In this document: one piece after another, positions 48,145 to 63,968 of the stretch | Layout: each line of letters begins with the position of its first letter | How positions within the stretch are numbered: the stretch's first letter is position 1 | Origin: Flavobacterium commune | GTDB lineage: Bacteria > Bacteroidota > Bacteroidia > Flavobacteriales > Flavobacteriaceae | Direction of reading: 5' to 3' | Assembly (NCBI RefSeq): GCF_001857965.1 | Contig: NZ_CP017774.1 | Location: 2,790,001 to 2,854,000, forward strand | Length of the DNA stretch: 64,000 nucleotides | Position numbers and translations under genes: made by a program | Notes under the pieces: generated by a model | Database searches by the model: none | Told to the model about the DNA's origin: nothing | What the model saw: only the letters and a program-made list of their open reading frames with translations

Positions 48145-51100
48145 TTATTTGATAATTATTTTTTGGTAAAACTCACCTTTATTGGTTTTAATAAGAACCA
48201 GATAGACAGCCCAACTTAGGTTTCTAACAGGGATTTGAATGTGATTTTGATCGCTATCTGTAATTTTCCAATTATCGATATTTTGTTTTAAAATGCTGAA
48301 TAAAGCAACTGATTTAATAGTTACATCTGAAAAATAGTTTCTAATATTTAGCATTTGATTTTCATTAGTATAATAAGTTATAATTCCATTTTCGATAGTA
48401 GTTTCGTTAATGCTGGTTAATCGATTCACAAATTGTAATGAGAAACGCCCAGTATATTCTCCTGCTGCTAATGATATATCCAGATTTGCTATTCTTAAAT
48501 CATGATATGTTTTTGTAACATTGTCATAAAGGAAAATATCAAGATTGTTAGGAACATTTTCTAGGGCATCAATTTTTATGGTTGATTGTCCTTCATTGGC
48601 AATTTTAATTCCTAATGGTATGATTTGTTCAGTACCAAAACTTGGAATTCCCTGGATTATTACAGGAGTGTTTTCTAATTCCCAATACATATCATTGTCG
48701 TTAACGTCAATCATTCGGGCATCATAACCAAAATCAAATTGATTGGTAGTATTAGGATCAGTACCAACGAGTATTTGTCTGTGAGTGGCAATTGGGGAGT
48801 CAAATCCTAATCTGATTTTCATTCGTTTGTCAACAGTTTCTTTGTCAGCAAAAGAATTTTTGTCGTTGGCAACTTTCATAAAAATAGCGTTCCCCGAAGT
48901 TTCTCTAACAAAAGCACGTTGACTGTTTTTAAATGAAAATGTTCCTCCTTGCACAACACCATTTGAAGAAGCATTTATATAGAAAGCCTGTCCTACCGGA
49001 ATATAACGTTGTGGGATTTTTGAACCTGTTGCACCATTGTTTACATTAAGAGGATCGTTAGCAATAGCTGATACACCTCCAGTTAGGGTATAGACCGCAT
49101 AACCTCCTTCGTATTGGGCTAAAACGTGATTGTTTGATAATCCAAAATGATCCCAGAAATATAGTGCACCACCAAAAGTATTTATTGTTCCTTTACAACC
49201 AGTACAATCTTTTAAGTTATCTTTTATAAATTCATCTGCATCTAATGCACTTGGATAGGGATTTCCTATTAAGTAGGTTTGGTTTATCGCAATGAACTTG
49301 TTAATAGTTCCTGAATTAGGTTTTCCGGTAAAGACATAGTTTTGCGTAGCGTTTATGGTAGCCGTTCCGCCAGTTCCTTTCATGGTAAATCCATCAGCAG
49401 CGGCTATAAGTCCTGTACTGGCTTTATATTGCCATTGCCAGTAGTTATCCCAATTTGAATTTGAAGCAGGAGTTAGTGAACTATAAGTCCAAATCCATCG
49501 ATTACTAATTTTAATTGGACTGGAGAGTGGTCCATCAGCAAAATAAGCACCATCACCAAAAGTTATCGCTTTTGGGTTTGACGAATCAGTACCGTCTCTT
49601 AATATATTAAACATCGCATAAGTAGAATTATTAGCAGCTCCGCGATTGCTTACTGGCGAAGACCAGTAATTGTAATTAAAACTGTTTTTCTTGCCTTGTT
49701 GGTCTATTTCGATAAAGCCTGTGCTGCTTTCTTCAAAAATACTTTCGCTGTATTGGGCTAGGGTATAGCGTTTTTGAACCAATTGTGATTCTCCAATTAA
49801 ATCAATTTTTCCATCTAATTTCAAATAATGTGTTATCCATAACCCATGCCCCGGATTAGTTTCATTTTGAGTACCTGAATTTGTAATTATTAATTCATTA
49901 GACAATACAATAAGACCTAATAATGTAAGATCTTGGGTGTTTGATGTAACCTGATGATTGAGTCTAACAATATTCCAATTTATAGGTTGGTTGTTTATTC
50001 CAGAACTATTAGGAACATTCCAGACATCAAAATGAGTCCATGTATTATCAGTATTCCAGGTTTGATTGGAAACTCTGGAAGTGTATGGAATAGGAGCTGT
50101 TTGTTGTTGACTTGAGTTTATATTATGCAGTCTTCCACTAATTCCTTTATATGCTGCCAAATCACCACAGTTGGTATTCATTCGATAATAACCTAAAAGA
50201 TTATTCCATAATAATGGATTGTCTTCTATACCGTTTTGGTCACTATCTGTTCCGTAAATTTTCATTGGAATAACAACACCTCCCACATCAGAACCTGAAA
50301 TATCAATTTCTTGGTTCATCATTTGTCTAATTTGTTCTACTCCAATAGCTTTGTTCCATATTTTAAGTTCGTCAATCCAGCCATGAAAATAGTTGGTTGG
50401 AATGTTCGTTGCTGTTTGATCCATAGCACCCAAAAGTGCTTCAATGTTATTTGAAGTTGCTGTAGGAGTAGCTCCATTTTTCGTAGCTATTTCTAAACCA
50501 TCAACATATAGTTTATAAGTTGATCCATCAAAAGTGACTGCCAAATGATACCATCTGTCAGTACCAATGGAATACGAACCGGATGTTACATTGTTAGCTC
50601 CGGAAGCATTGTACCAATTGAATCTTAGCTGACTATTAACGATGCTTAAATCATAACCACTGTTATTACTTCCGTTATCTTTTCTGGAGAAAACAGTTCT
50701 TGTACCATCAGTTGAATTTGGTTTTACCCAGGCTTCGATACTAAATGCAGCATTGAGATTGTAATTGTCTTTAAAAGAAACATAGTCATTATTACCATCA
50801 AAATCCACCGATTTACAATCAATAACCGTAATGTTTACTTCATCAAAACAACCATTAGTGAGCGTCCATCTCAAAGTGTAGCTACCCGGATCAGCGGTAA
50901 AAACGGCATTTGGGTCTGTTGCGCTGGAAAAAACAGCTGAATTTCCACAAGAAGTAGTACTGGCACTTATAATAGTCCATGTTCCTGTAATTCCAGTTCC
51001 AGGATAGTCGGTGTCTCCCGAAGCTGTATCAGGAACTACATAGAGATTGCTTTTCCAGGCTCCTTTATTGTAATTGGTTACGGCAGAAACGGTATTGTCA

Positions 51101-54100
51101 TAAGCATTTAATTGCAGTGTGTTTTCGCCACAATTACTCGCAAGCGGAATGTAGTCTTCTCCTGCGTAGGCTAAACTGGTGTTGATATTAACATAATTAG
51201 TTCCGGCATCATTATCAGTTCTACAACCATTTACTAAAGTAGTTACACCATATTCTCTAATTCCGGGAGTTACAGGGGTAACAGTTGCTGTTGTTCCAGT
51301 GGCAATTACATTTCCGTCTTCATCTGTCCATTCTAACTCATCATCAACAGTACCAAAAGTAAAACCAACATCGTCTATAGCCCAACCACTTCCAACGTTA
51401 AAAGTTTGGTTATTGGTGCAATTATTAGAAGCATGTTTTGGGAAAGTTACATTGTTACAACTACCTCCACTTGGCCCGGAATTAAATGTAAATCTAACAC
51501 GCAATCCTGCAAGTCCTGCGTAAGGTCCTAAATTGATTGAGGTATATCGAAACGCATCAGCTACAAGATATTGTTTAGTACAGGCAGAACCTCCTGAACC
51601 TTTATAAGCACGAACACCTGTAGTGTTTCCAGCTGTTAGTATGTCATTTTGCATCGTATTCAATGTCACTGTATAAGTATTTCCAGCGTCAAAAGATAAT
51701 TCGATTTTTCCAGAACCACCATTACAGAAATAGTAAGCGGTATAGAATGTTAATATTGCTTCACTGGAAGTCATTCCTATAGTACTGAAAACAGGAGTTT
51801 CTAATGTTGTAATTCTGTTTGCTTGAGCGGCATGTGCAATAGCAAATTTTGTGTTGTCTGAAGTGTCATAATTAATTCCGCTAAAAGTTGTATTTGGATT
51901 GTTGGTAGAGTTGGTTTCTTTCCAAGTTGGCTGTTCATTATTATTTCCACTGGCAGGGAATTCGCCATCTTTGCCATCCACACGCCATCCGTCAGGTTGG
52001 GCATAATTAAATTTTCCTCCTTTACCAAACTGTCCTTCGGGTTGATCGTAAAAACTTTCGGCATTTACAGTTACTGAATCTCCCAGACAAATATCTAAAG
52101 CGGTATGACTCACAATAATAGGCGGTTCATCAGGAGGTAAGAATCTTGCATAGGCTTCGGCAGAAGTTTTAACAAGAGAAGGATTGTCTGCATCGGTAAT
52201 TCTTAGTCTGACAAAAGTATCGCTTGTTAACCCAATTAAAGTATAAGTTAATAAACCAGCAGTATTAGGAATGCTTATCCAGGTTTCGCCATTATCATTA
52301 GAATATTCCCAATTTAAAACATGTGAAGCTTGCAAATTATAAGTCCCAATAGCTTGTAATGTAAATTGGATGTCTTTAGGAACTGTAATTCCACCAGGAC
52401 AGGCTGTAACTTCTACTAATGCGCTTGGCGGTTGCGGGTTATCCGGAATAGGGTTTATTATAACTCCAGTTAAATAAGTAAATAGATTCTTTGGAGGTTC
52501 GACAGTAACGGTTGCTGTACAGCTATTTGAATTTCCATTAACATCTACAGCAGTTAATGTCGTTGTGGCGGTATAAAGGTTAGGGGAATCAGGAAAAGTA
52601 CTAGGAGATACACTCAAAGAGGCAATTCCGCAAGCATCATTTGATCCATTGTCAATATCTGAGGCTTTAATGTTGGCAACTCTGGAAATAGGGTCAATTA
52701 CAACAACAAAATTTTTGCAAATCATTGTTGGAGGTGTATTGTCAACTACTGTAATTACAGCATTACAGCTATTACTGTTTCCATTATTGTCATATACTGT
52801 AAAAACTACATTGTTAGACCCTACATTACTGCAATTAAAAGCATTTGGAGACACCGTCATATTTACAATTCCACAATTATCAGATGAACCGTTATCTAAA
52901 TTTAAAGCTGCGATATTTACAGTGCCGCCTGCACTTAAGTTAGCAGTGTAGTTTTTACATACTGCAGTTGGTGCAATGTTGTCTATTGCACTAACTGTAA
53001 ATGTGCAAGTACTTGTTCTGTTAGCATCATCTCTTGCTGTAAGTGTTACTGTGGTTATGGCAGCAGAAATTAATGTTCCCGGAGTCGGACTTTGTGTAAT
53101 AGTCAGGTTAGTATCACAGTTGTCTGAAGCCGTTGCAAGTGAGGTGTAATCCTGTAAAGAAAATTGACAATTGTTGTTGTAATTAACATTTTGATTTCCA
53201 GGACAACTTATAGAAGGATTCTCATTATCAATTACAGTAATGGTCTGATTACAAGAAGCTGTTAATCCGGCATTGTCTGTTACTGTCCAGTTAACGGTTG
53301 TATTTCCAATAGGGAATTGATAGGTGGCAGTATTAATTATAGTTCCGGATACACTGGCAACCACAGAAGCAATCCCACAGTTGTCGTTTGTTGTAGGTGT
53401 ACCAATGTTTACCGTTGTATAACAGTCACCGGTTCCGTTTGCACTAGTATTAGCGCTGATATTTCCGGGGCAAGTAATTGTTGGGGGAACATTATCTGTA
53501 ACTGTAACAATTTGATTGGCTGTTGCAGTGTTTCCCGAACTATCGGTTACGGTCCAAATTACGGTAGTATTACCTAACGGATAAGTTGTTGATGGATGAT
53601 TGTTAGTTACCGATGCGACAGCACAGTTATCAGCAGTTGTAGGAGTTCCTAAAGCCACTCCGGTTGCAGTACAAGCGGTATTTGTAGTTGTGTTAATTGT
53701 AGGAGGAGCTGTTATTGTAGGTTTGATATTATCAGTTACAGTTATTGTTTTAGATCCTGTGGTAGTGTTTCCGGCAGCATCAGTAACGGTATAATTTATA
53801 GTTGTTACTCCTCTGTTAAAGACATAAGTTCCTATTTGTCCTGATGTAGTTGCTGCATTTGTAGCTCCGCTTAGCGAATAAGAAATTGAAGAACCACTAC
53901 AGTTGTCAGAAAAGGTTGTGTTTGTTACTACAACCGAAGCAGTACAAAGACCAGCATTCGTATTTGCAGTTTGGTTTGCACCAACAGTTAAGGTTGGATT
54001 AGTCAAATCTTTAGCCGTAATCACCACAATTTCAGAATCTATATTTCCGGCAGCATCGGTAGTGGTTACGGTAATATTGATTGTTCCGTTGTGAACGGCT

Positions 54101-57100
54101 GCTTGCGTTGTTCCCGCAGCCGGACTTTGAGTGATGGTAGTTCCTGTACAATTATCGGTAGCTGAAGAACCGTCCACTAGATTTGGAATGGTAACCAAAC
54201 AACTTGCATTTAAAGTTGCATTTTGGTTGGCTTCGGCAGTTAAAACAGGAGCTGTCAAATCTTTAGCCGTAATCACTACAATTTCAGAATCTGTATTTCC
54301 GGCAGCATCAGTAGCTGTTACGGTAACGTTGATTGTTCCATTGTTTACAGCAGCTTGTGTTGTTCCCGCAGCCGGACTTTGAGTGATGGTAGTTCCGGTA
54401 CAATTATCGGTTGCTGATGAACCGTCAACTAGATTTGGAATGGTAACCAAACAACTTGCATTTAAAGTTGCATTTTGGTTGGCTTCGGCAGTTAAAACAG
54501 GAGCGGTCAAATCTTTTGCAGTAATTATCACAATTTCAGAATCTGTATTTCCGGCAGCATCAGTAGCTGTTACGGTAACGTTGATTGTTCCATTGTTTAC
54601 AGCAGCTTGTGTTGTTCCCGCAGCCGGACTTTGAGTGATGGTAGTTCCGGTACAATTATCGGTTGCTGATGAACCGTCAACTAGATTTGGAATGGTAACC
54701 AAACAACTTGCATTTAAAGTTGCATTTTGGTTGGCTTCGGCAGTTAAAACAGGAGCGGTCAAATCTTTTGCAGTAATCACCACAATTTCAGAATCTATAT
54801 TTCCGGCAGTATCGGTAGCGGTTACGGTAACGTTGATTGTTCCGTTGTGAACGGCAGCCTGAGTTGTTCCCGCAGTAGGGCTTTGAGTGATGGTAGTTCC
54901 AGTACAATTATCGGTAGCTGAAGAACCGTCCACTAAATTTGGAATGGTAACCAAACAACTGGCATTTAAAGTTGCATTTTGGTTGGCTTCGGCAGTTAAA
55001 ACAGGAGCGGTCAAATCTTTTGCAGTAATCACCACAATTTCAGAATCTGTATTTCCGGCAGCATCGGTAGCGGTTACGGTAACGTTGATTGTTCCGTTGT
55101 GAACGGCTGCTTGCGTTGTTCCCGCAGTCGGACTTTGAGTGATGGTAGTTCCGGTACAATTATCGGTTGCTGAAGAACCGTCCACTAAATTTGGAATGGT
55201 AACCAAACAACTTGCATTTAAAGTTGCATTTTGACTGGCTTCGGCAGTTAAAACAGGAGCGGTCAAATCTTTTGCAGTAATCACCACAATTTCAGAATCG
55301 TTATTTCCGGCAGCATCAGTAGCGGTTACGGTAACGTTGATTGTTCCGTTGTGTACAGCAGCCTGAGTTGAACCCGCAGCCGGACTTTGAGTGATTGTAG
55401 TTCCAGTACAATTATCGGTAGCTGAAGAACCGTCCACTAAATTTGGAATGGTAACCAAACAACTTGCATTTAAAGTTGCATTTTGACTGGCTTCGGCAGT
55501 TAAAACAGGAGCGGTCAAATCTTTTGCAGTAATCACCACAATTTCAGAATCGTTATTTCCGGCAGCATCAGTAGCGGTTACGGTAACGTTGATTGTTCCG
55601 TTGTGTACAGCAGCCTGAGTTGAACCCGCAGCCGGACTTTGAGTGATGGTAGTTCCTGTACAATTATCGGTTGCTGATGAACCGTCAACTAGATTTGGAA
55701 TGGTAACCAAACAACTTGCATTTAAAGTTGCATTTTGGTTGGCTTCGGCAGTTAAAACAGGAGCGGTCAAATCTTTTGCAGTAATTATCACAATTTCAGA
55801 ATCTGTATTTCCGGCAGCATCAGTAGCGGTTACGGTAACGTTGATTGTTCCATTGTTTACAGCAGCTTGTGTTGTTCCCGCAGCCGGACTTTGAGTGATG
55901 GTAGTTCCGGTACAATTATCGGTTGCTGATGAACCGTCAACTAGATTTGGAATGGTAACCAAACAACTTGCATTTAAAGTTGCATTTTGGTTGGCTTCGG
56001 CAGTTAAAACAGGAGCGGTCAAATCTTTTGCAGTAATTATCACAATTTCAGAATCTGTATTTCCGGCAGCATCAGTAGCTGTTACGGTAACGTTGATTGT
56101 TCCGTTGTGAACGGCTGCTTGCGTTGTTCCCGCAGCCGGACTTTGAGTGATGGTAGTTCCTGTACAATTATCGGTTGCTGATGAACCGTCAACTAGATTT
56201 GGAATAGTAACTAAACAACTTGCATTTAAAGTTGCATTTTGGCTGGCTTCGGTAGTTAAAGCAGGAGCGGTCAAATCTTTTGCAGTAATCACTACAATTT
56301 CAGAATCTGTATTTCCGGCAGCATCGGTAGCGGTTACGGTAACGTTGATTGTTCCGTTGTGAACGGCTGCTTGCGTTGTTCCCGCAGCCGGACTTTGAGT
56401 GATGGTAGTTCCTGTACAATTATCGGTTGCTGATGAACCGTCAACTAGATTTGGAATAGTAACTAAACAACTTGCATTTAAAGTTGCATTTTGATTGGCT
56501 TCGGCGGTTAAAACAGGAGCGGTCAAATCTTTTGCAGTAATCACCACAATTTCAGAATCTGTATTTCCGGCAGCATCGGTAGCGGTTACGGTAACGTTGA
56601 TTGTTCCGTTGTGAACGGCTGCTTGCGTTGTTCCCGCAGTCGGACTTTGAGTGATGGTAGTTCCGGTACAATTATCGGTTGCTGAAGAACCGTCCACTAA
56701 ATTTGGAATGGTAACCAAACAACTTGCATTTAAAGTTGCATTTTGACTGGCTTCGGCAGTTAAAACAGGAGCGGTCAAATCTTTTGCAGTAATCACCACA
56801 ATTTCTGAATCGGTATTTCCGGCAGTATCGGTAGCGGTTACGGTAACGTTAATTGTTCCGTTGTGAACGGCTGCTTGCGTCGTTCCCGCAGCCGGACTTT
56901 GAGTGATGGTAGTTCCTGTACAATTATCGGTTGCTGATGAACCGTCCACTAAATTTGGAATAGTAACTAAACAACTTGCATTTAAAGTTGCATTTTGGCT
57001 GGCTTCGGCAGTTAAAACAGGATTGGTAGTGTCTCCAACTGTGATTATTACAGGAGTTGTGTAAGCCGAATAACAAGCTACTCCATTTAAAATAGATACC

Positions 57101-58149
57101 GTTCTTCTTTGGTAGCTTGTTGTGGAAGTTAGTGTAGGAGGACTGTAGGCTGCCAATGTTGCTCCTCCAATGGTTTGAAAACTGCCACTAGCATTGGTTT
57201 GCCATTGATAAGAAATGGTTCCATCTCCGGTTCCATCCATTGTAGAAGTAAGTGGGTCAGACACTGTTCCACTACAAATCATTTGAGTATTACCAATAGT
57301 TCCCGGAGTAACCACTGATTGTATTGTAACGGTTTTTGTTTCTGTATTAGTAAAACTGCTTCCATCAGTAACACTAAAGGAAATACTGTATTGTCCTGAA
57401 AGCGCAGGTGTAAATGAGGTTGTTGTTGAGGTGCTGTTAGTAATGGCAACCGCATTATTATTTGGGTCTTTTACAGTCCAAAGATAAGTTACACTACCAT
57501 TTGGAGTTCCTGTATATCCACCTGTTAGTGCTATATTAGTTCCATTGCAAAGGGTTGAAGAAAAATCAACAGGGTTTATAATGTTGGCATTTAGTGTTCC
57601 TGATCCGGCAACGATTTCTCCAAATGTTAATACGTCGCTATTACCTGATCCATTACAAACAGCAATTAATTTGTTGTCAATGTATATTTCGGTATTATTG
57701 GAACAGGCCCCTGAAATAGTTCCTCCAGCATCGATTTTAATAACTGCGTTGTTGGGTAAATACAATTGTGTTTTTTGGTTGGTAAAATTTAAAATACCAG
57801 TAGCAGTTAGGTATAAAAGCGGTGTTTTTAAATCAACTTGTTTCGGATTTGAACCTGCTAATAAATTTAAAGTTCCATTAACAATTAAATCTCCTATTGA
57901 AGTTGTAACCAGATTTGTGGAAACCGTAATTGTATGGCTAGAATTAATCGTAACAGCATAGTTTCCATTAGCCTGACCAGGATAATTCAAAGCAGATTCC
58001 CAATTAAGTGTTGTGCCATTGTAAATTTCCCATGAAGAAGCAGATTCCCAATTACCCGTAGCTTTTGATTGGAAATCACCATCTGCCTGACTGTAAGCGG
58101 AAAGGAAATTAAATATAATAAATAGTAAGAATAAGTATTTTTGTTTCAT
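48145..58149 (-). CDS. giant T9SS repeat adhesin
   Basis: This 3334-residue secreted protein has a signal peptide (1-20), beta-rich N-terminal region with a PKD-like and an Ig-like segment (to about 372), twelve 84-residue HYR/Ig-like repeats (373-1380), further HYR-like repeats (about 1381-1860), a segment resembling MAM/jelly-roll modules (about 2120-2290), a LamG-like concanavalin domain (about 2446-2610), a region typical of flavobacterial surface proteins (SSPVSN, LIGNPYPSALDADEFI) and a C-terminal T9SS sorting domain ending KIIIK. It is probably anchored on the cell surface for adhesion, gliding or biofilm. Upstream 58150-58561 shows no clear promoter box. Confidence 0.9.
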   Translation of the reverse strand: MKQKYLFLLFIIFNFLSAYSQADGDFQSKATGNWESASSWEIYNGTTLNWESALNYPGQANGNYAVTINSSHTITVSTNLVTTSIGDLIVNGTLNLLAGSNPKQVDLKTPLLYLTATGILNFTNQKTQLYLPNNAVIKIDAGGTISGACSNNTEIYIDNKLIAVCNGSGNSDVLTFGEIVAGSGTLNANIINPVDFSSTLCNGTNIALTGGYTGTPNGSVTYLWTVKDPNNNAVAITNSTSTTTSFTPALSGQYSISFSVTDGSSFTNTETKTVTIQSVVTPGTIGNTQMICSGTVSDPLTSTMDGTGDGTISYQWQTNASGSFQTIGGATLAAYSPPTLTSTTSYQRRTVSILNGVACYSAYTTPVIITVGDTTNPVLTAEASQNATLNASCLVTIPNLVDGSSATDNCTGTTITQSPAAGTTQAAVHNGTINVTVTATDTAGNTDSEIVVITAKDLTAPVLTAEASQNATLNASCLVTIPNLVDGSSATDNCTGTTITQSPTAGTTQAAVHNGTINVTVTATDAAGNTDSEIVVITAKDLTAPVLTAEANQNATLNASCLVTIPNLVDGSSATDNCTGTTITQSPAAGTTQAAVHNGTINVTVTATDAAGNTDSEIVVITAKDLTAPALTTEASQNATLNASCLVTIPNLVDGSSATDNCTGTTITQSPAAGTTQAAVHNGTINVTVTATDAAGNTDSEIVIITAKDLTAPVLTAEANQNATLNASCLVTIPNLVDGSSATDNCTGTTITQSPAAGTTQAAVNNGTINVTVTATDAAGNTDSEIVIITAKDLTAPVLTAEANQNATLNASCLVTIPNLVDGSSATDNCTGTTITQSPAAGSTQAAVHNGTINVTVTATDAAGNNDSEIVVITAKDLTAPVLTAEASQNATLNASCLVTIPNLVDGSSATDNCTGTTITQSPAAGSTQAAVHNGTINVTVTATDAAGNNDSEIVVITAKDLTAPVLTAEASQNATLNASCLVTIPNLVDGSSATDNCTGTTITQSPTAGTTQAAVHNGTINVTVTATDAAGNTDSEIVVITAKDLTAPVLTAEANQNATLNASCLVTIPNLVDGSSATDNCTGTTITQSPTAGTTQAAVHNGTINVTVTATDTAGNIDSEIVVITAKDLTAPVLTAEANQNATLNASCLVTIPNLVDGSSATDNCTGTTITQSPAAGTTQAAVNNGTINVTVTATDAAGNTDSEIVIITAKDLTAPVLTAEANQNATLNASCLVTIPNLVDGSSATDNCTGTTITQSPAAGTTQAAVNNGTINVTVTATDAAGNTDSEIVVITAKDLTAPVLTAEANQNATLNASCLVTIPNLVDGSSATDNCTGTTITQSPAAGTTQAAVHNGTINITVTTTDAAGNIDSEIVVITAKDLTNPTLTVGANQTANTNAGLCTASVVVTNTTFSDNCSGSSISYSLSGATNAATTSGQIGTYVFNRGVTTINYTVTDAAGNTTTGSKTITVTDNIKPTITAPPTINTTTNTACTATGVALGTPTTADNCAVASVTNNHPSTTYPLGNTTVIWTVTDSSGNTATANQIVTVTDNVPPTITCPGNISANTSANGTGDCYTTVNIGTPTTNDNCGIASVVASVSGTIINTATYQFPIGNTTVNWTVTDNAGLTASCNQTITVIDNENPSISCPGNQNVNYNNNCQFSLQDYTSLATASDNCDTNLTITQSPTPGTLISAAITTVTLTARDDANRTSTCTFTVSAIDNIAPTAVCKNYTANLSAGGTVNIAALNLDNGSSDNCGIVNMTVSPNAFNCSNVGSNNVVFTVYDNNGNSNSCNAVITVVDNTPPTMICKNFVVVIDPISRVANIKASDIDNGSNDACGIASLSVSPSTFPDSPNLYTATTTLTAVDVNGNSNSCTATVTVEPPKNLFTYLTGVIINPIPDNPQPPSALVEVTACPGGITVPKDIQFTLQAIGTYNLQASHVLNWEYSNDNGETWISIPNTAGLLTYTLIGLTSDTFVRLRITDADNPSLVKTSAEAYARFLPPDEPPIIVSHTALDICLGDSVTVNAESFYDQPEGQFGKGGKFNYAQPDGWRVDGKDGEFPASGNNNEQPTWKETNSTNNPNTTFSGINYDTSDNTKFAIAHAAQANRITTLETPVFSTIGMTSSEAILTFYTAYYFCNGGSGKIELSFDAGNTYTVTLNTMQNDILTAGNTTGVRAYKGSGGSACTKQYLVADAFRYTSINLGPYAGLAGLRVRFTFNSGPSGGSCNNVTFPKHASNNCTNNQTFNVGSGWAIDDVGFTFGTVDDELEWTDEDGNVIATGTTATVTPVTPGIREYGVTTLVNGCRTDNDAGTNYVNINTSLAYAGEDYIPLASNCGENTLQLNAYDNTVSAVTNYNKGAWKSNLYVVPDTASGDTDYPGTGITGTWTIISASTTSCGNSAVFSSATDPNAVFTADPGSYTLRWTLTNGCFDEVNITVIDCKSVDFDGNNDYVSFKDNYNLNAAFSIEAWVKPNSTDGTRTVFSRKDNGSNNSGYDLSIVNSQLRFNWYNASGANNVTSGSYSIGTDRWYHLAVTFDGSTYKLYVDGLEIATKNGATPTATSNNIEALLGAMDQTATNIPTNYFHGWIDELKIWNKAIGVEQIRQMMNQEIDISGSDVGGVVIPMKIYGTDSDQNGIEDNPLLWNNLLGYYRMNTNCGDLAAYKGISGRLHNINSSQQQTAPIPYTSRVSNQTWNTDNTWTHFDVWNVPNSSGINNQPINWNIVRLNHQVTSNTQDLTLLGLIVLSNELIITNSGTQNETNPGHGLWITHYLKLDGKIDLIGESQLVQKRYTLAQYSESIFEESSTGFIEIDQQGKKNSFNYNYWSSPVSNRGAANNSTYAMFNILRDGTDSSNPKAITFGDGAYFADGPLSSPIKISNRWIWTYSSLTPASNSNWDNYWQWQYKASTGLIAAADGFTMKGTGGTATINATQNYVFTGKPNSGTINKFIAINQTYLIGNPYPSALDADEFIKDNLKDCTGCKGTINTFGGALYFWDHFGLSNNHVLAQYEGGYAVYTLTGGVSAIANDPLNVNNGATGSKIPQRYIPVGQAFYINASSNGVVQGGTFSFKNSQRAFVRETSGNAIFMKVANDKNSFADKETVDKRMKIRLGFDSPIATHRQILVGTDPNTTNQFDFGYDARMIDVNDNDMYWELENTPVIIQGIPSFGTEQIIPLGIKIANEGQSTIKIDALENVPNNLDIFLYDNVTKTYHDLRIANLDISLAAGEYTGRFSLQFVNRLTSINETTIENGIITYYTNENQMLNIRNYFSDVTIKSVALFSILKQNIDNWKITDSDQNHIQIPVRNLSWAVYLVLIKTNKGEFYQKIIIK
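54010..57033 (-). repeat. twelve tandem 252-bp repeats
   Basis: Exactly twelve units of 252 bp (84 codons) span 3024 bp with no frame break. The conserved core reads TLNASCLVTIPNLVDGSS and TDNCTGTTITQSP. Units differ by few bases; copies 5, 10 and 11 share VNNG instead of VHNG, and copies 6 and 7 share AAGST/GNND. This indicates recent unit and block duplication. Confidence 0.95.
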
Positions 58150-58561: not shown

Positions 58562-59569
58562 TTATTTATACCTTTTTAATAAATGCTTAGGGAAGTTTTT
58601 AGATTTTATCATTTTCCCTGAATCGGTAATTAGAATAAAATAATAATCAGGATACTGATCTAGTAGTTTTACAGCTTTTTTTTTACCTAAAACCATAGCC
58701 GAGGTACTAAAACCATTAGCAGTTTCAGCATTAGGACCAAAAACGCTTACGCTACACAATCCCGTTGCGGGATAACCTGTAGTTGGATTAATAATATGAG
58801 AATAACGTTTTTCGTTAAAAACAACAAACTTTTCGTAAGAGCCAGAAGTAGTGACAGCTCCTTGTTTCAGGGAAATTGTAGCTAAAATTTGGCTTGGATC
58901 AAAAGGATTTGTGATGCCAATATTCCAAGGTTTTCCGTCAGGCTGTGTTCCCCAAACGCTCATGTCGCCTGTGGCATTTACAATTCCGGATTGGATTCCT
59001 TTGGCAAGCATCATTTGTTGGCATTTGTGGGTGGCATAACCTTCGCCAAGTGCACCGAATCCAATTTTCATTCCTTTTAATTTTAAGAAAATAGTCGAAT
59101 TGATACTGTCTAGGATTATGTTTTTATAACCTACTTTTTCAACTGATTTTTTAATCGCTTCGGGAGTTGGCATTTCGGTCATGGAACCGTCAAATTTCCA
59201 AATACGATCCATGGCGGCAAAACTAATATCAAAAGCGCCATTGGTAATTTCAGAAAAGTGTAAAGCTCTTTTGGTTAATTCAAAAAGTTCTTTGTCCACT
59301 TTTACAGGACGAATCCCTGCATTTTGATTGACTTCTGAAACTTGTGAAGTAGGTTTCCAGTCGGAGATGAGGTGTTCGATACGGGCAATTTCGGCAATGA
59401 TGACATCAATATTTTGTTCGGCAGAAAGAGAATCCTGAGCTACAATATTAATATCAAAACGACCTCCCATGAGCATTGTCGATCTTTTTCGTAACACTTG
59501 CGAATGACAAGAAAAACCAAATAGCAAAAAAGTAAAGAAGCTTATAATTGTTAAGGATTTGGTTTTCAT
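58562..59569 (-). CDS. apbE: FAD:protein FMN transferase ApbE
   Basis: ApbE transfers FMN from FAD to a Ser/Thr of target proteins outside the cytosol. The 335-residue lipoprotein has lipobox FGFSC (Cys21) and the ApbE motifs GAFDIS, GALGEGYA, NATGDMSVWG and TTSGSYEKF followed by HIINPTTGYPA. It is the last gene of a four-gene group, separated from the PepSY reductase by a dispersed repeat (59590-59778). Its likely target is the DUF2271 protein of this operon. Confidence 0.93.
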   Translation of the reverse strand: MKTKSLTIISFFTFLLFGFSCHSQVLRKRSTMLMGGRFDINIVAQDSLSAEQNIDVIIAEIARIEHLISDWKPTSQVSEVNQNAGIRPVKVDKELFELTKRALHFSEITNGAFDISFAAMDRIWKFDGSMTEMPTPEAIKKSVEKVGYKNIILDSINSTIFLKLKGMKIGFGALGEGYATHKCQQMMLAKGIQSGIVNATGDMSVWGTQPDGKPWNIGITNPFDPSQILATISLKQGAVTTSGSYEKFVVFNEKRYSHIINPTTGYPATGLCSVSVFGPNAETANGFSTSAMVLGKKKAVKLLDQYPDYYFILITDSGKMIKSKNFPKHLLKRYK

Positions 59570-59589
59570 TCGTATATTAAATAAAATTA

Positions 59590-59778
59590 ATAACAGTCCG
59601 CTTAAGCGGACACAATAAAAAAATAGGCCACTGATGAGACTGATTGGACAGATAAAAACAGATTTTTTATAGCTCTTTATAAACTACAATCAGCGATAAT
59701 CCGTTAAAATCAGCTTCACCTGCCTGTCGGCAGACAGGTCTGTGTGCCATTCTCAATGATTGATAAGAAAGTCATAAA
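59590..59778. repeat. dispersed intergenic repeat, copy B
   Basis: Homologous to 1-205 in the same direction: GTCCGCTTAAGCGGAC hairpin at 59596-59611, AATAAAAAAATAGGCCAC, TAGCTCTTT, CGATAATCCG and CCATTCTCAAT. The 29-nt palindromic cassette lies at 59716-59744, in the right half and inverted relative to copy A. The element sits between the PepSY reductase gene and apbE. Confidence 0.85.
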
Positions 59779-59779
59779 A

Positions 59780-61954
59780 TTAATAACAATCAGTCAGGAT
59801 TTGCCCTTTGACTTTGTATTCAGAAAGTGTTGTGTTATTTTTAGAAATACAAATAGCGTCTAATACTTTTTCGACATCAAACTGCATGGCCAGTGCACCA
59901 CAAATCATAATTACGCCATCATTTTGCAATAAATTAGCAAAGAAATCAGCGTCAATTTGGATTAAATCCATCACATAATGATGGTTGGCTTCACGGGAAT
60001 ATGCCAGATGAAATTGTGTTAAATATTGTTTTTGCATCATTTCTGAAGCAAAATCCTGATAATGCTTCGTGATTTCAGTTTCTTGGCGAAATCCGGAATA
60101 CAAGTGAATGTAGGTTTTTTTCTTATTTTGTGCAATCATTCCCAGAAAAGGAGCGATTCCTGTTCCATTTGAAATTAGAGCAACCTGGCTTGCTTTTTTG
60201 GGAAAATGAAAAGCGTGATTATTTATAATTTGAGATTTGATTGTATCTCCTGGTTTTAGATTGTATAAAAATCCGGAACCTAAACCGTTAGGATGCAATT
60301 TTACGGCTAATTGAAGATTTCCATTTCTTTTTCCAATAGAGTACAAACGTTCGCGATTGTCATTAGCCGGATAAATAGCCAAGAGATCTCCTGATGTGAA
60401 TTTGCTTCGAATTCCGGCTCTTAAAGTCAATAAAAAAGTTTGGTCGGTTTCTGAAATGATGGTTTTGTCTAAAACCATTAATTGTTGCAATCCCTTAGGA
60501 ATATGATTGTAAACCGATGGAGTAGTGCTTAATGAAATCCCCGTTTTGGCACTCCATAGTTGTACCCAATTGACAAATTCTTCGGCTGATTTATCATTTA
60601 CGGTTTGTAATTCTAACAAGCGATTGGTCCAGGTTTTAGTTTCTAAAAGGGCATCAACTTCTTTGGCATAACCACAAAAATCAGGATAGGATTTGGAACC
60701 AAAACCAATTACAGAATAATTAATAGTTTGATGTTGCGAATTTTTTTCTAAAAGCGATACAAATTTACTGGCATTAGAAGGTGAATCACCTAAGCCATAA
60801 GTGGAAGTGAAAATGAGTAAATGTTCCGCTTTTGGGTAAAGCGTATAATTGTTTAGTTGTGCCAAATGTGCTTTTTCGTCATTATCAATGATTTGTTTCA
60901 AAATAGCATTGGCAAAGCGCAACGAACTTCCGTTTTCTGAGCCTACTAATAAAATATATTTGCTTTCCTCGGCTTTGAATTTATTTTTAATGCGGCTTGC
61001 TCTTCTTTTAAAGGTCATAGCAAATCCCGAATAGATAAAAAACAGAATGTTTAAAGAAGCTAATCCGAGAATAAATGCCCAAATACTATTGGCTCTTCCG
61101 GTGTGTAAGTCCAAACTCAAATCGGCTAATAGGGCTGAGGCAGGGTAAAGTTCTTCTGAAATAATTTCGTTAGAATATTGATTGACTTCTATTTTTCGGT
61201 CTTTTAGTTCGAAAATATAATAATCCTCTTCATCGTCTGAAAAAGGAAATTCTATTTTAGTAACCTCGGCTAAAGGAGTATTTTTTAAATCGAATGTTTT
61301 TTTAGTTTGAGTTGTTGTTGGGTTTTCGGTTTGGTTTTCATTTTCGAAAAGATGAAATCGTTCCATTGATAAATAAGTTCCCGAAAGTGCTATAATCAAG
61401 ATGGGAATTAATGCCAAACGCCCCAATAAAACGTGGTAGTATTGTGCAAAATATTCTTTGATAATTTTAGCGAAGAAGTTGCGTAAACCTCTTTGCCTAT
61501 TGATAACAAGAGCAAAACCTGACATAGCAATTAATACTAATAAAAAAGAATTAATTCCTATAAACAATCGTCCTGTTTCATGTAGAAATAAAGAGCGGTG
61601 AAGTCCGGTAATCCAATTAATAAAATCACTTTTCTTAGTTGGAGTACCAATGATTTTTGCTGTTTCTGGATTGATATACGCATTGACATCGTTTCCATCA
61701 TTATCAATCGCTTGTAAAGTAACAAACTGATTGTGGTCGATACTTAATTCGGTTATTTCGGGATAGCTTTTTCGAAGTTCAGGCAGGGTTTTCCCCAATG
61801 TAATAGCATCGAAATTTTCCACCCGATGGGCAGGTATTTTCTGCTGTATAGCATCTACTGCAAGTATTGTACCTGTAACGGATGCGATAATTAAAAATGC
61901 AGCAGAAAATACCGCCAAAGCGAGGTGTGAGTACCGCCAAAAAGAAAGAGTCAT
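59780..61954 (-). CDS. PepSY-flavodoxin-FNR membrane reductase
   Basis: The 724-residue inner-membrane protein has four helices (about 10-33, 128-150, 178-196, 290-314) with PepSY-type periplasmic segments between them and several helix-border His residues (10, 119, 125, 174, 284) that could bind heme. It continues with a flavodoxin-like FMN domain (about 333-465, GSENGSS) and a ferredoxin-reductase-like FAD/NAD(P)H domain (490-724) with RLYS (536-539), GTGIAPF (597-603) and a C-terminal aromatic residue. It would carry electrons from cytosolic NAD(P)H across the membrane. It is 12 bp from the DUF2271 gene. Confidence 0.9.
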   Translation of the reverse strand: MTLSFWRYSHLALAVFSAAFLIIASVTGTILAVDAIQQKIPAHRVENFDAITLGKTLPELRKSYPEITELSIDHNQFVTLQAIDNDGNDVNAYINPETAKIIGTPTKKSDFINWITGLHRSLFLHETGRLFIGINSFLLVLIAMSGFALVINRQRGLRNFFAKIIKEYFAQYYHVLLGRLALIPILIIALSGTYLSMERFHLFENENQTENPTTTQTKKTFDLKNTPLAEVTKIEFPFSDDEEDYYIFELKDRKIEVNQYSNEIISEELYPASALLADLSLDLHTGRANSIWAFILGLASLNILFFIYSGFAMTFKRRASRIKNKFKAEESKYILLVGSENGSSLRFANAILKQIIDNDEKAHLAQLNNYTLYPKAEHLLIFTSTYGLGDSPSNASKFVSLLEKNSQHQTINYSVIGFGSKSYPDFCGYAKEVDALLETKTWTNRLLELQTVNDKSAEEFVNWVQLWSAKTGISLSTTPSVYNHIPKGLQQLMVLDKTIISETDQTFLLTLRAGIRSKFTSGDLLAIYPANDNRERLYSIGKRNGNLQLAVKLHPNGLGSGFLYNLKPGDTIKSQIINNHAFHFPKKASQVALISNGTGIAPFLGMIAQNKKKTYIHLYSGFRQETEITKHYQDFASEMMQKQYLTQFHLAYSREANHHYVMDLIQIDADFFANLLQNDGVIMICGALAMQFDVEKVLDAICISKNNTTLSEYKVKGQILTDCY

Positions 61955-61966
61955 TTAGCTATGCTT

Positions 61967-62449
61967 TTAAATTTTGCTTAATCTTACGTAGCGGATGTAT
62001 CCTTTTCCTTCCGATTTTGCTGCAATTCCAGCAGTTGTAAGTGGAATTTCTACATCGGAAACATGGTATTTTTGATTTTCAACTGCCGATTCGAAGCGCA
62101 ATTTATATCCTTTATTAATTTTAGAATCATCAATTTCAATTGTTGTCATGCTGCGATCTCCACCAGTAACTGAAGCACCAGTGATAGCACTAATGTTAGA
62201 AGGTTTTTTAGAGTTGAATTTATGCCATTCTTTTAAACTGTTGTACCATTTTTTGTCGTCTCCCATTACGTAAAGTGTTTTTTCGTAATCACCTTTGGCA
62301 TTAATCAAAGAAACTACTACATAAGCGCCTTCGCCAGCATAATTAGACATTTGAAGCATACATTTGTATTTGCTGCTTTGTGCGTTAGTCTGAAAAGAAA
62401 TAAGGAAAATAAATGCGCCAGCTAAGGCTGTTTTAATTAATGAGTTCAT
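61967..62449 (-). CDS. DUF2271 protein with candidate flavinylation motif
   Basis: A 160-residue exported protein with a signal peptide (1-23, TNAQ) and a DUF2271 beta-sandwich. ITGASVTGG at 89-97 fits the ApbE recognition pattern (S/T)GA(S/T), with Ser93 as possible FMN site. The gene lies between the ankyrin gene (4 bp gap) and the PepSY reductase, so it is the natural electron acceptor outside the membrane. DUF2271 has been linked to extracytosolic flavinylation in the literature as I recall; direct proof for this protein is absent. Confidence 0.85.
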   Translation of the reverse strand: MNSLIKTALAGAFIFLISFQTNAQSSKYKCMLQMSNYAGEGAYVVVSLINAKGDYEKTLYVMGDDKKWYNSLKEWHKFNSKKPSNISAITGASVTGGDRSMTTIEIDDSKINKGYKLRFESAVENQKYHVSDVEIPLTTAGIAAKSEGKGYIRYVRLSKI

Positions 62450-62453
62450 TTTA

Positions 62454-63968
62454 TTATTTTAAAATTTCAACAGAAATGTTGTTTTTAGTTAGTGTTTCGT
62501 TTTCTTTGGCTAAGTCGTAAGCACTTTCGTCAAAGTCGGTTTTAATATCTTTTTTGGCACCAATGGACAATAAGTATTTTATAATGGTATCATTGTCTGC
62601 AATCATAACAGCTTTGTGCAAAGCGGTTAATCCGTCTTTGTTTTTGGCATTTATATCAATATTTAAATCGGCTATTTTTTTTAACAAAAGTAAATCATTT
62701 TTTAGTACTGCAAAATGATACAAAGTACTTCCGTCTTTTTGTGCTTCAGCCAGTTTCAAACCATTATCTTGCAATAATTTTATTTTTGTAGTAAAAGGGT
62801 CTGCCTTAGGCGCATTGCTAGATTCTGGACCACGTCCTCCCATCATTTGTGGACGATACGATTGGATTAAATAGTAGCCTAAGTTGTTGTTGTCTTTGTC
62901 CAAAACAGCAATATTAGCTTTTTTGCTCAATAAAAGCTCAACAGTTTCCGGAGTTCCTGACAAGATTGCTATAGATAATGCTGATTCCCCTTTTGCATTT
63001 TGAACGTTGATGTCTTTTACTTTTGGAAGTAATAATTCCAGTGCCTGAGTATCTCTGGCAGCGGCTGCATTCATTAACACCGTATTTCCATCGTTATCAG
63101 CTTTGTTAACCTCAACTCCTTTGTTTAAGAAATAAGTGATAATTTCGGATTGATTGGGTTTGCGCACTAAATAGTGTAATACGTTTTCTCCTTCATTAGA
63201 AACTACACCTGGATTTAGCTTTAAATCATCTGTTAAATATTGAAAAACTTCAATGGTATTCGCTTCACGACGAGAACCCTGAGCAGCAATAATAAGTGCA
63301 TTGTCAGTAGCTTTTACCCCTTTTTGTAAAAGTGTTTTCAAAAGCTCAATATTTCCTGTTCTGGCTGCGTAATTAAAAGCAGTATTACCATTGTTGTCTG
63401 TGTCTTTTAACGAAAGTCCTTTAGCAATAAAATAATTAGTTAGGCTTAGATCTTTGTCATTTGCTATAGCCAAAAGTAAGAGAGTAGCTCCGTCTTTGTA
63501 TTTTTTCTTAACATCTAATCCGGCTTTGAAAAAAGCGTCATACAGGGCTGTTTTTTTTTGACCGGCATTAATGGCAAATGTTATAGGAGTAGTTCCGTGG
63601 CTGTCTTCAAAATGAATATCTGAACCTTTAGCAATTAAATAGTTTACTATTTCCAGATTTCCTTTGCTGGCTGCCCAATGCAGATAGATACGATTATCAT
63701 GAGTTAATTTGCTTACCGTATTTCCTGGTTGTTCCAATAAAAATTTAATAGTTTCATTTGGAGCCTCATTATTAATGGCATAAACCACAGCGTCAAAAGC
63801 CATTGGATTGCTTGCAGAAGGATTACTTCCTTTTGCAATTTCTGCTTTAAGTGCAGTAACATCAGGAGATGTTTTCCAAAAAGACGGTTCTAATAGTGAA
63901 TTTTTTTGTTGAGCTGTAGCAAAGAAAGTAGTAGCCAAAGCAAGAGAAACAAATAGATTTTTCTTCAT
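62454..63968 (-). CDS. exported ankyrin repeat protein
   Basis: The 504-residue protein has a signal peptide (1-19, ATAQ) and about a dozen ankyrin repeats spanning most of its length (e.g. YLHWAASKGNLEIVNYLIAKG, TALHKAVMIADNDTIIKYLLSIGA). It would provide a periplasmic protein-binding scaffold. First gene visible of the ankyrin-DUF2271-PepSY-apbE group; what lies upstream is outside the window (32 bp remain). Confidence 0.88.
   Translation of the reverse strand: MKKNLFVSLALATTFFATAQQKNSLLEPSFWKTSPDVTALKAEIAKGSNPSASNPMAFDAVVYAINNEAPNETIKFLLEQPGNTVSKLTHDNRIYLHWAASKGNLEIVNYLIAKGSDIHFEDSHGTTPITFAINAGQKKTALYDAFFKAGLDVKKKYKDGATLLLLAIANDKDLSLTNYFIAKGLSLKDTDNNGNTAFNYAARTGNIELLKTLLQKGVKATDNALIIAAQGSRREANTIEVFQYLTDDLKLNPGVVSNEGENVLHYLVRKPNQSEIITYFLNKGVEVNKADNDGNTVLMNAAAARDTQALELLLPKVKDINVQNAKGESALSIAILSGTPETVELLLSKKANIAVLDKDNNNLGYYLIQSYRPQMMGGRGPESSNAPKADPFTTKIKLLQDNGLKLAEAQKDGSTLYHFAVLKNDLLLLKKIADLNIDINAKNKDGLTALHKAVMIADNDTIIKYLLSIGAKKDIKTDFDESAYDLAKENETLTKNNISVEILK

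Follow-up and report, generated by a model that had tools for sequence, protein, structure and literature searches.

The gene run and its predicted redox sites

The window analyzed here is a 64,000-nucleotide stretch (positions 2790001-2854000) of the single-contig genome of Flavobacterium commune. Near its end lie four minus-strand open reading frames (ORFs), encoding a secreted ankyrin-repeat protein, a small DUF2271 protein, a PepSY-type membrane reductase, and an ApbE family flavin transferase. The ORF listing confirmed their coordinates (58562..63968), and with the Pfam domains found in them this bears out an earlier note, made from the sequence alone, that had described four consecutive genes on one strand. 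The DUF2271 match is the only one in the genome. With a probability of roughly 70%, we read the operon as a periplasmic ferric-chelate reductase which is induced by iron starvation and represents a Bacteroidota variant of a published PepSY-like flavinylation system. The four-gene set probably drives electrons outward across the inner membrane, freeing iron from scavenged compounds. The genes and predicted functional sites are as follows (all on the minus strand; Pfam E values in parentheses).

62454..63968: secreted ankyrin-repeat protein (ank), 504 amino acids (Ank_2, 6.8e-45; also Ank_4)
61967..62449: DUF2271 protein, 160 amino acids (PF10029, 5.4e-40), putative flavinylated electron carrier
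62171..62182: codons of T90-G91-A92-S93 (TGAS) in DUF2271, predicted attachment motif for flavin mononucleotide (FMN), with Ser93 as putative acceptor
59780..61954: membrane reductase with PepSY_TM, flavodoxin, and ferredoxin-NADP reductase (FNR) parts, 724 amino acids
61925..61927: codon of His10 in the reductase, predicted heme ligand, aligned with a His of FoxB
61598..61600: codon of His119 in the reductase, predicted heme ligand, aligned with a His of FoxB
61433..61435: codon of His174 in the reductase, predicted heme ligand, aligned with a His of FoxB
61103..61105: codon of His284 in the reductase, predicted heme ligand, aligned with a His of FoxB
58562..59569: ApbE family protein FMN transferase using flavin adenine dinucleotide (FAD), here called Asn-type, 335 amino acids (PF02424, 2.7e-79)
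58715..58717: codon of Asn285 in ApbE, at the position held in FmnB by Asp301, which is catalytic and binds Mg

The gaps measure 4 bases between ank and the DUF2271 gene, 12 bases between the latter and the PepSY gene, and 210 bases between the PepSY gene and apbE. Relatives were gathered from a phylum sample of 395 Bacteroidota genomes, which yielded 33 fetched loci besides the window, and from five added order-level loci. Also included were 80 named Flavobacterium loci, the best 80 of 565 confirmed and hence close relatives, and 10 opened plasmid records (1 from Spirosoma, 9 from Pseudomonadota) out of 97 with a DUF2271 match. Organism names on the best protein relatives were mostly Flavobacterium. 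The grouping of ank, DUF2271, and PepSY is far beyond chance, because this gene order is repeated in related genomes.

The DUF2271 protein begins with a signal peptide, as judged by eye, and contains ITGASVTGG at residues 89 to 97, just as the earlier note had it. In the [S/T]GA[S/T] motif, it is the last residue that receives FMN (PMC12052999). Conservation of the motif had been set beforehand as a test of this assignment, and it was retained in 26 of 28 DUF2271 proteins of the phylum sample, 4 of 5 at order level, 80 of 80 named, and 10 of 10 from plasmids. The departures read VGET in loci L040 and L056 and TGET in L163. We rejected the idea that the motif is lost where apbE is not adjacent: five of the six apbE-less loci of the phylum sample keep TGAT or SGAT, and only L040 has VGET. 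All six genomes carry an ApbE elsewhere, and one of the loci, L032, ends 1.2 kb beyond PepSY. Proteins in which ApbE and DUF2271 are fused (L051, L053, L060, and L063) show TSAT, AGAT, or SSAT where stand-alone DUF2271 proteins have TGAS. The structural model of DUF2271 was beta-rich, with a predicted local distance difference test (pLDDT) score of 75. Since it is least certain at residues 80 to 91 and has no regular structure up to residue 98, the model would place TGAS in a loose loop, as expected of an exposed site. A fold search with DUF2271 returned nothing at an E value of ≤0.001.

The reductase combines PepSY_TM (PF03929, 6.4e-33), Flavodoxin_1 (1.4e-14), and NAD_binding_1 (PF00175, 2.7e-07) with a FAD_binding_6 match (3.9e-04) that falls exactly at the model cut-off. 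Its C-terminal half is similar to NADPH-P450 reductase and to nitric oxide synthase reductase. Compared as a profile with solved chains, the membrane half gave a single match at an E value of ≤1, namely, FoxB (PDB 7abw, 4.8e-08), which was not matched when the same half was searched as a single sequence. The four His residues aligned with FoxB were invariant in 122 of 122 aligned PepSY proteins, nine of which derive from plasmids (8 Pseudomonadota, 1 Spirosoma). For the solved structure, PMC11334425 gives two heme sites, each with a pair of conserved His residues. Judging from predicted helices, His10 and His174 would face the cytosolic side and His119 and His284 the periplasmic side.

Electrons from cytosolic NAD(P)H would pass first to the FAD and FMN cofactors of the FNR/flavodoxin part, next through two b-type hemes held by His10/His174 and His119/His284, respectively, and finally to FMN on Ser93 of DUF2271. 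The domains, the four invariant His residues, and the conserved motif support this path well, which the earlier note had proposed with heme as a query, yet it is essentially that of the published PepSY-like system. The proposal had largely been anticipated, since Meheust et al. 2021 (PMC8238504) reported that a DUF2271 protein of another species is flavinylated by its ApbE, that a Thr-to-Ala exchange at [S/T]GA[S/T] abolishes flavinylation, and that PepSY-DUF2271-ApbE clusters may be iron reductases. Their survey counted 3220 PepSY-like clusters, 2833 of them with DUF2271; an NAD-binding domain was present in 1077 of the PepSY genes.

Two further observations concern the surroundings of apbE. 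The gap between the PepSY gene and apbE contains an imperfect palindrome, ACCTGCCTGTCGGCAGACAGGT (59718-59739), perhaps a repeat element or a processing site. The same strand encodes, some 0.4 kb downstream of apbE (48145-58149), a 3334-amino-acid secreted protein with approximately 12 near-identical repeats, as counted by eye.

Co-inheritance of the secreted ankyrin with DUF2271

Matches to PF10029 above the model cut-off numbered 34 and came from 33 of the 395 genomes, and weaker matches alone were found in 19 more. When the window ankyrin was used as the query (E ≤ 1e-40), 28 genomes were positive, and all of them were among the 33 with DUF2271. Both genes were thus present in 28 genomes, DUF2271 only in 5, ankyrin only in 0, and neither in 362 (Fisher P = 3.8e-38, relatedness ignored). 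For genomes of the same genus the counts were 16 with both (the window's included), 8 with neither, and 0 with one alone. Four of the five DUF2271-only genomes carry an ApbE-DUF2271 fusion (G150, G190, G383, and G391), and the fifth (G351) carries a divergent DUF2271.

A stand-alone, window-like DUF2271 was found in 28 of the 33 fetched loci, with ank directly upstream in 26. One exception, L056, holds the second, VGET-type DUF2271 of genome G182 without ank or PepSY; its neighbors are DUF6607 and relatives of TonB receptors. The other, L057, ends at a contig edge, and in its genome a pair of tandem ankyrins lies at the end of a different contig. At L168 (86-3048), the ankyrin gene stands in two tandem copies near a contig end. 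All five order-level loci contained ank, and the run of ank, DUF2271, and PepSY was complete in 80 of the 80 named Flavobacterium loci. The apbE gene was present in 78 of these 80 (both misses being short contigs) and in 20 of 26 operons of the phylum sample. Flavobacterium bizetiae has a second ank-DUF2271 pair after a TonB receptor and a lipoprotein-like gene, and no second PepSY gene was found within the 12 kb read there. The Spirosoma plasmid carries ank-DUF2271-PepSY together with a divergent TonB receptor and an ApbE nearby, and none of the nine Pseudomonadota plasmid loci had an ankyrin match within 5 kb.

From these sequence comparisons, the ankyrin looks obligate in the Bacteroidota form of the operon. 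Its co-inheritance, including the extra F. bizetiae pair without a second PepSY gene, points to DUF2271 as its partner. The genome search that the earlier note had suggested thus came out in favor of an association (28 of 28 ankyrin-positive genomes carried DUF2271), and the proposal of the ankyrin as docking partner gains strong support from co-inheritance, specifically with DUF2271, which it would bind. It is very improbable that the ankyrin is just co-transcribed and has no part in the electron path. That explanation sits poorly with the strict joint presence among same-genus genomes (16, 8, and 0, as above).

An AlphaFold2 model of the ankyrin (mean pLDDT of 90) showed helical repeats throughout, forming a solenoid from about residue 23 to residue 504 behind a signal peptide of about 20 residues (by eye). 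One insert, at residues 375 to 387, was disordered and of low confidence, and no domain beyond the repeats and this insert was found. All of the 50 matches listed in a fold search were ankyrin-repeat structures. A role as a type IV effector was considered and rejected, as NCBIfam effector models scored far below their cut-offs and the similarity was of the generic ankyrin kind. In 34 ankyrins, residues W31, F58-D59, G82-N83, K87, T89-H90, R93, Y95, and W98-A99 were at least 95% conserved; they cluster in the N-terminal repeats. Such a solenoid would act as a periplasmic adaptor for DUF2271 and may keep this carrier close to the reductase or to an incoming iron complex.

Instead of docking DUF2271, the ankyrin could be a heme-handling chaperone that loads heme into the PepSY cytochrome or passes on scavenged heme. 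One paper (PMC7567364) cites ankyrins of Pseudomonas aeruginosa and Campylobacter jejuni that are required for catalase activity, probably via heme binding. A nearly invariant His90 lies within the conserved KxTHDxRxY stretch, and at locus L166 ank is directly preceded by a TonB receptor-like ORF and an HmuY-family gene. Nevertheless, we consider this role quite improbable: the ankyrin tracks DUF2271, as the additional F. bizetiae pair illustrates, and in eight Pseudomonadota loci a PepSY protein of this kind occurs without an ankyrin. At L166 (5326-6339 and 6320-7909), the HmuY-family gene overlaps the ankyrin ORF at the earliest start that the latter could use, an arrangement that may represent a heme-linked version of the operon.

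The Asn-type ApbE

The earlier note had assigned the fourth gene to ApbE. PF02424 upholds the family; the replacement of its usual catalytic Asp had passed unremarked. Asn285 was matched to FmnB numbering via the Asp-x-x-Ser-Thr spacing. In FmnB, Asp301 binds both Mg ions and is part of an Asp-Ser-His triad, and exchange of the Mg ligands for Ala greatly reduced or abolished activity (PMC8906456). The conserved residues of Vibrio cholerae ApbE are Ser241, His257, and Asp285 (PMC12052999). The column of the catalytic Asp held Asn in 101 of 101 operon ApbEs (the window, 99 loci, and Spirosoma) versus Asp in 23 of 23 reference rows. The references comprised 15 other ApbEs from Bacteroidota genomes, 7 from Pseudomonadota, and that of Escherichia coli; two of the 17 rows collected from elsewhere in Bacteroidota genomes, the window's own ApbE and a fusion, had been removed before the count. 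Nine of 12 reference-invariant columns were kept in all 101 operon ApbEs, including the triad residues Ser242 and His258. Two others vary slightly, with Thr replacing Ser in 14 proteins and Pro in 1, and only the Asp is changed throughout. Three residues after the Asn, Ser was found in 101 of 101 operon ApbEs, and Ala in 22 of 23 references.

Genomes lacking the ankyrin supplied 20 more ApbEs, of which 19 had Asp and 1 had Asn (G269), so that 42 of the 43 unfused non-operon ApbEs examined keep the Asp. The G269 gene (L215:8593-9594) is an orphan apbE of the operon type, in a genome with no listed DUF2271 and no other PF02424 match. In the ApbE-DUF2271 fusions, the Asp column held Gly in four of five rows and a gap in one. 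A tree of 61 rows placed all 19 Asn rows on one side of a single branch with a support of 100/100.

The exchange raises the question of whether the Asn-type ApbE is an FMN transferase at all; if it is not, DUF2271 would be left unmodified or be modified by another ApbE. Besides the loss of activity on Ala exchange at the FmnB ligands, Asp301 among them, this is favored by the genomic distribution. Six of 26 operons in the phylum sample had no apbE in the stretch read, and modification in trans may therefore be possible. A second ApbE match (E ≤ 1e-50) was present in 17 of 21 operon genomes of this sample, F. commune included. On the other hand, the Asn-type protein is the only PF02424 match, beside a DUF2271 with TGAS, in G025, G170, G245, and G549. 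These genomes were selected, three for their single ApbE match and one as Riemerella columbina, and the assemblies of G025 and G245 are drafts; two PF02424 matches each were found in G000 and G359. The second ApbE of F. commune is of the Asp type and lies between a thioredoxin-like gene and DUF3570, the latter being its likely substrate. The genomes with a sole ApbE, the DUF3570 neighbor of the second enzyme, and the nine fully kept columns, triad Ser and His included, make it unlikely that the Asn-type ApbE is without transferase activity. FMN_bind (PF04205), looked for as a second substrate, had no match in the six genomes searched, a result that speaks neither for nor against activity. The notion of a dead enzyme is likewise weakened by the kept invariant columns and the genomes in which this is the sole ApbE.

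We infer two private enzyme-substrate pairs in F. commune, in which the operon ApbE would be a dedicated DUF2271 transferase, working with Asn instead of the usual catalytic Asp. Combined with the ankyrin, this suggests a more specific picture, which we put forward tentatively and at less than even odds: a self-contained flavin carrier unit of Bacteroidota, in which the ankyrin docks flavinylated DUF2271 and moves it back and forth between a heme reductase and arriving iron complexes, and a private clade of Asn-type ApbEs transfers the FMN. If true, Asn, along with the constant Ser three residues on, would amount to a second way, found in nature, of building the active site of a flavin transferase. 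The Asn-type ApbE offers a probe of how indispensable the Asp, supposedly essential in these enzymes, actually is.

Iron as the candidate acceptor, and related systems

The acceptor is most likely a ferric chelate, because of a Fur-box-like promoter, TonB neighbors, and induction of a similarly annotated gene run by iron depletion in Riemerella. Upstream of ank, ATTCTAAATA was found in 88 of 111 regions versus 0.8 expected in single-letter shuffles, and TACATTTG was found in 78 versus 1.1 expected; these regions are mostly from one genus and are not independent. TACATTTG fits TAnnTTTG, which we take to be the Bacteroidota -7 element. In F. commune the element reads ATTTTTATTTATTCTAAAT and lies at 2854030-2854048, 30 bases past the window end and approximately 61 to 80 bases before ank. 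The Fur box of Riemerella anatipestifer is ATTTAGAATTATTCTAAAT, and Fur bound fragments of the tested promoters in gel shifts (PMC5609570). Four further places with TTTTTA[TC]TTATTCTAAAT were among the matches listed for the genome, and three of them lie 61 to 71 bases before TonB receptor ORFs.

In R. anatipestifer CH-1, B739_0173-0177 are annotated as TonB receptor, hypothetical, Ankyrin, Predicted periplasmic protein, and "Nitric oxide synthase," and RNA sequencing with dipyridyl showed them up by log2 values of 3.31, 3.64, 2.41, 3.06, and 1.05, respectively (PMC5429918). An ankyrin named R. anatipestifer has 42% identity to the window ankyrin, a relative of which is also listed for Flavobacterium johnsoniae, and a complete ank-DUF2271-PepSY-apbE run was present at L164, which is R. 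columbina by its ankyrin. At L032, L047, L061, and L163, a TonB receptor, a lipoprotein-like gene, ank, DUF2271, and PepSY follow each other in one direction, and at L166 a ferritin gene comes after PepSY, in addition to the TonB receptor-like ORF and HmuY before ank. Two types of TonB gene were found near 42 of 80 named loci, a raw count without a background rate. The F. commune genome also has a strong FeoB_N match (6.4e-52). DUF2271 would reduce Fe(III) chelates delivered by TonB receptors, and Fe(II) would then enter via Feo.

Several observations weigh against this reading, in addition to the motif departures in three DUF2271 proteins, the operon ApbE without the Asp required in FmnB, and the frequent second ApbE match described above. 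Compared with the Fur box of R. anatipestifer, the F. commune element has 3 mismatches over 19 positions, and the element is in the opposite orientation at two of the three TonB sites. One place with the pattern, 2754705, precedes no iron gene, and a near match at 1456451 lies directly after a ferritin-like ORF (by eye). Genome-wide, the Fur-like pattern was found 57 + 67 times versus 44 + 43 for a backward control (≤3 mismatches), a modest excess. The window operon itself has no TonB gene, and the nearest same-strand TonB receptor was found 3.5 kb upstream. The R. anatipestifer cultures were harvested at optical densities of 1.1 and 0.6, seven other TonB genes went down in the same data set (PMC5429918), and B739_0175-0177 were equated with the operon through their names and order rather than their sequences. 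The upstream receptor (L002:11482-14017, minus strand, outside the window) has a small Cys-rich DUF6660 protein alongside.

The same electron path could end at something other than iron, for example copper, peroxide, or a further oxidant of the periplasm. In Bordetella, a heme-copper oxidoreductase is reported to be supported by a PepSY_TM protein (PMC13038864), and several Pseudomonadota plasmid relatives adjoin genes for metal efflux or P-type ATPases. We regard this as rather improbable given the Fur-box-like promoter, the TonB/lipoprotein-like or TonB/HmuY neighbors, the ferritin downstream at L166, and the induction of the R. anatipestifer run by iron depletion. With ferric chelates as the preferred acceptor, a likely function can be given to an operon that is common in Flavobacterium but has parts with misleading names, e.g., "nitric oxide synthase," or labeled as unknown. 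Iron is thereby named as the probable acceptor, and the role of the secreted ankyrin becomes a direct question of binding.

The operons on Pseudomonadota plasmids share DUF2271, the PepSY reductase, and ApbE, which follow one another as listed in seven of nine, and their DUF2271 proteins have TGAS or SGAS in nine of nine. They differ in that a small PepSY-domain protein is annotated upstream in the same direction in seven of nine and an ankyrin in none, and in that their ApbEs keep the Asp in seven of seven. In Shinella and Rhizobium, one gene separates the upstream small PepSY protein from the operon; PF13670 was confirmed in three of three such proteins scanned. In the Janthinobacterium plasmid locus, PepSY is represented by just a short fragment close to an insertion sequence.

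The Xus-type locus of Bacteroides (PMC10434189) similarly joins a TonB receptor, a lipoprotein, and PepSY and is strongly raised in low iron. Its lipoprotein is of the DUF4374 type, whereas the lipoprotein-like neighbors at L045, L032, L061, and L163 had no Pfam hit and no credible PDB match, which leaves a Xus-like identity of the operon-side gene unsupported. A search of the F. commune genome with PF14298 (DUF4374) gave no match, but the control of that search was also silent. The siderophore reductases FoxB and HiuB (PDB 7abw; PMC13001220) share PepSY_TM, the four aligned His residues, and, as proposed for the operon, a role in the release of siderophore iron. The FoxB chain has 382 residues and differs by being without a fused flavodoxin/FNR part, and a DUF2271 carrier goes unmentioned in the part of PMC13001220 that was available.

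The closest counterparts are the PepSY-like flavinylation systems, which share ApbE, DUF2271 with [S/T]GA[S/T], a PepSY_TM protein (PF03929/PF16357), an NAD-binding domain in a subset, proposed iron reduction, and Fur control in some species. In Caulobacter, a PepSY/DUF2271/DUF4198 locus is a Fur target, and its disruption lowers fitness in ethylenediaminetetraacetic acid (PMC12004947); DUF2271/DUF4198 genes of Alteromonas are iron responsive (PMC7190382). DUF4198, a frequent companion in such systems, was not among the neighbors scanned with Pfam here, although no systematic search for this domain was made. The word "ankyrin" is absent from the main texts, supplementary files aside, of PMC8238504, PMC11334425, and PMC12004947. 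Within the literature searched (few subscription journals and no supplements), ankyrin and DUF2271 never occurred together in one paper, and nothing was found that combines ankyrin, iron, and Flavobacterium with PepSY or with ApbE, nor anything on asparagine in an ApbE FMN transferase. The operon therefore differs from the published systems, as given in their main text, by its ankyrin and by Asn in place of the catalytic Asp of ApbE. The core machine is known; within that literature, the constant ankyrin, the assignment of iron to the Bacteroidota form, and the clade of Asn-type ApbEs are new.

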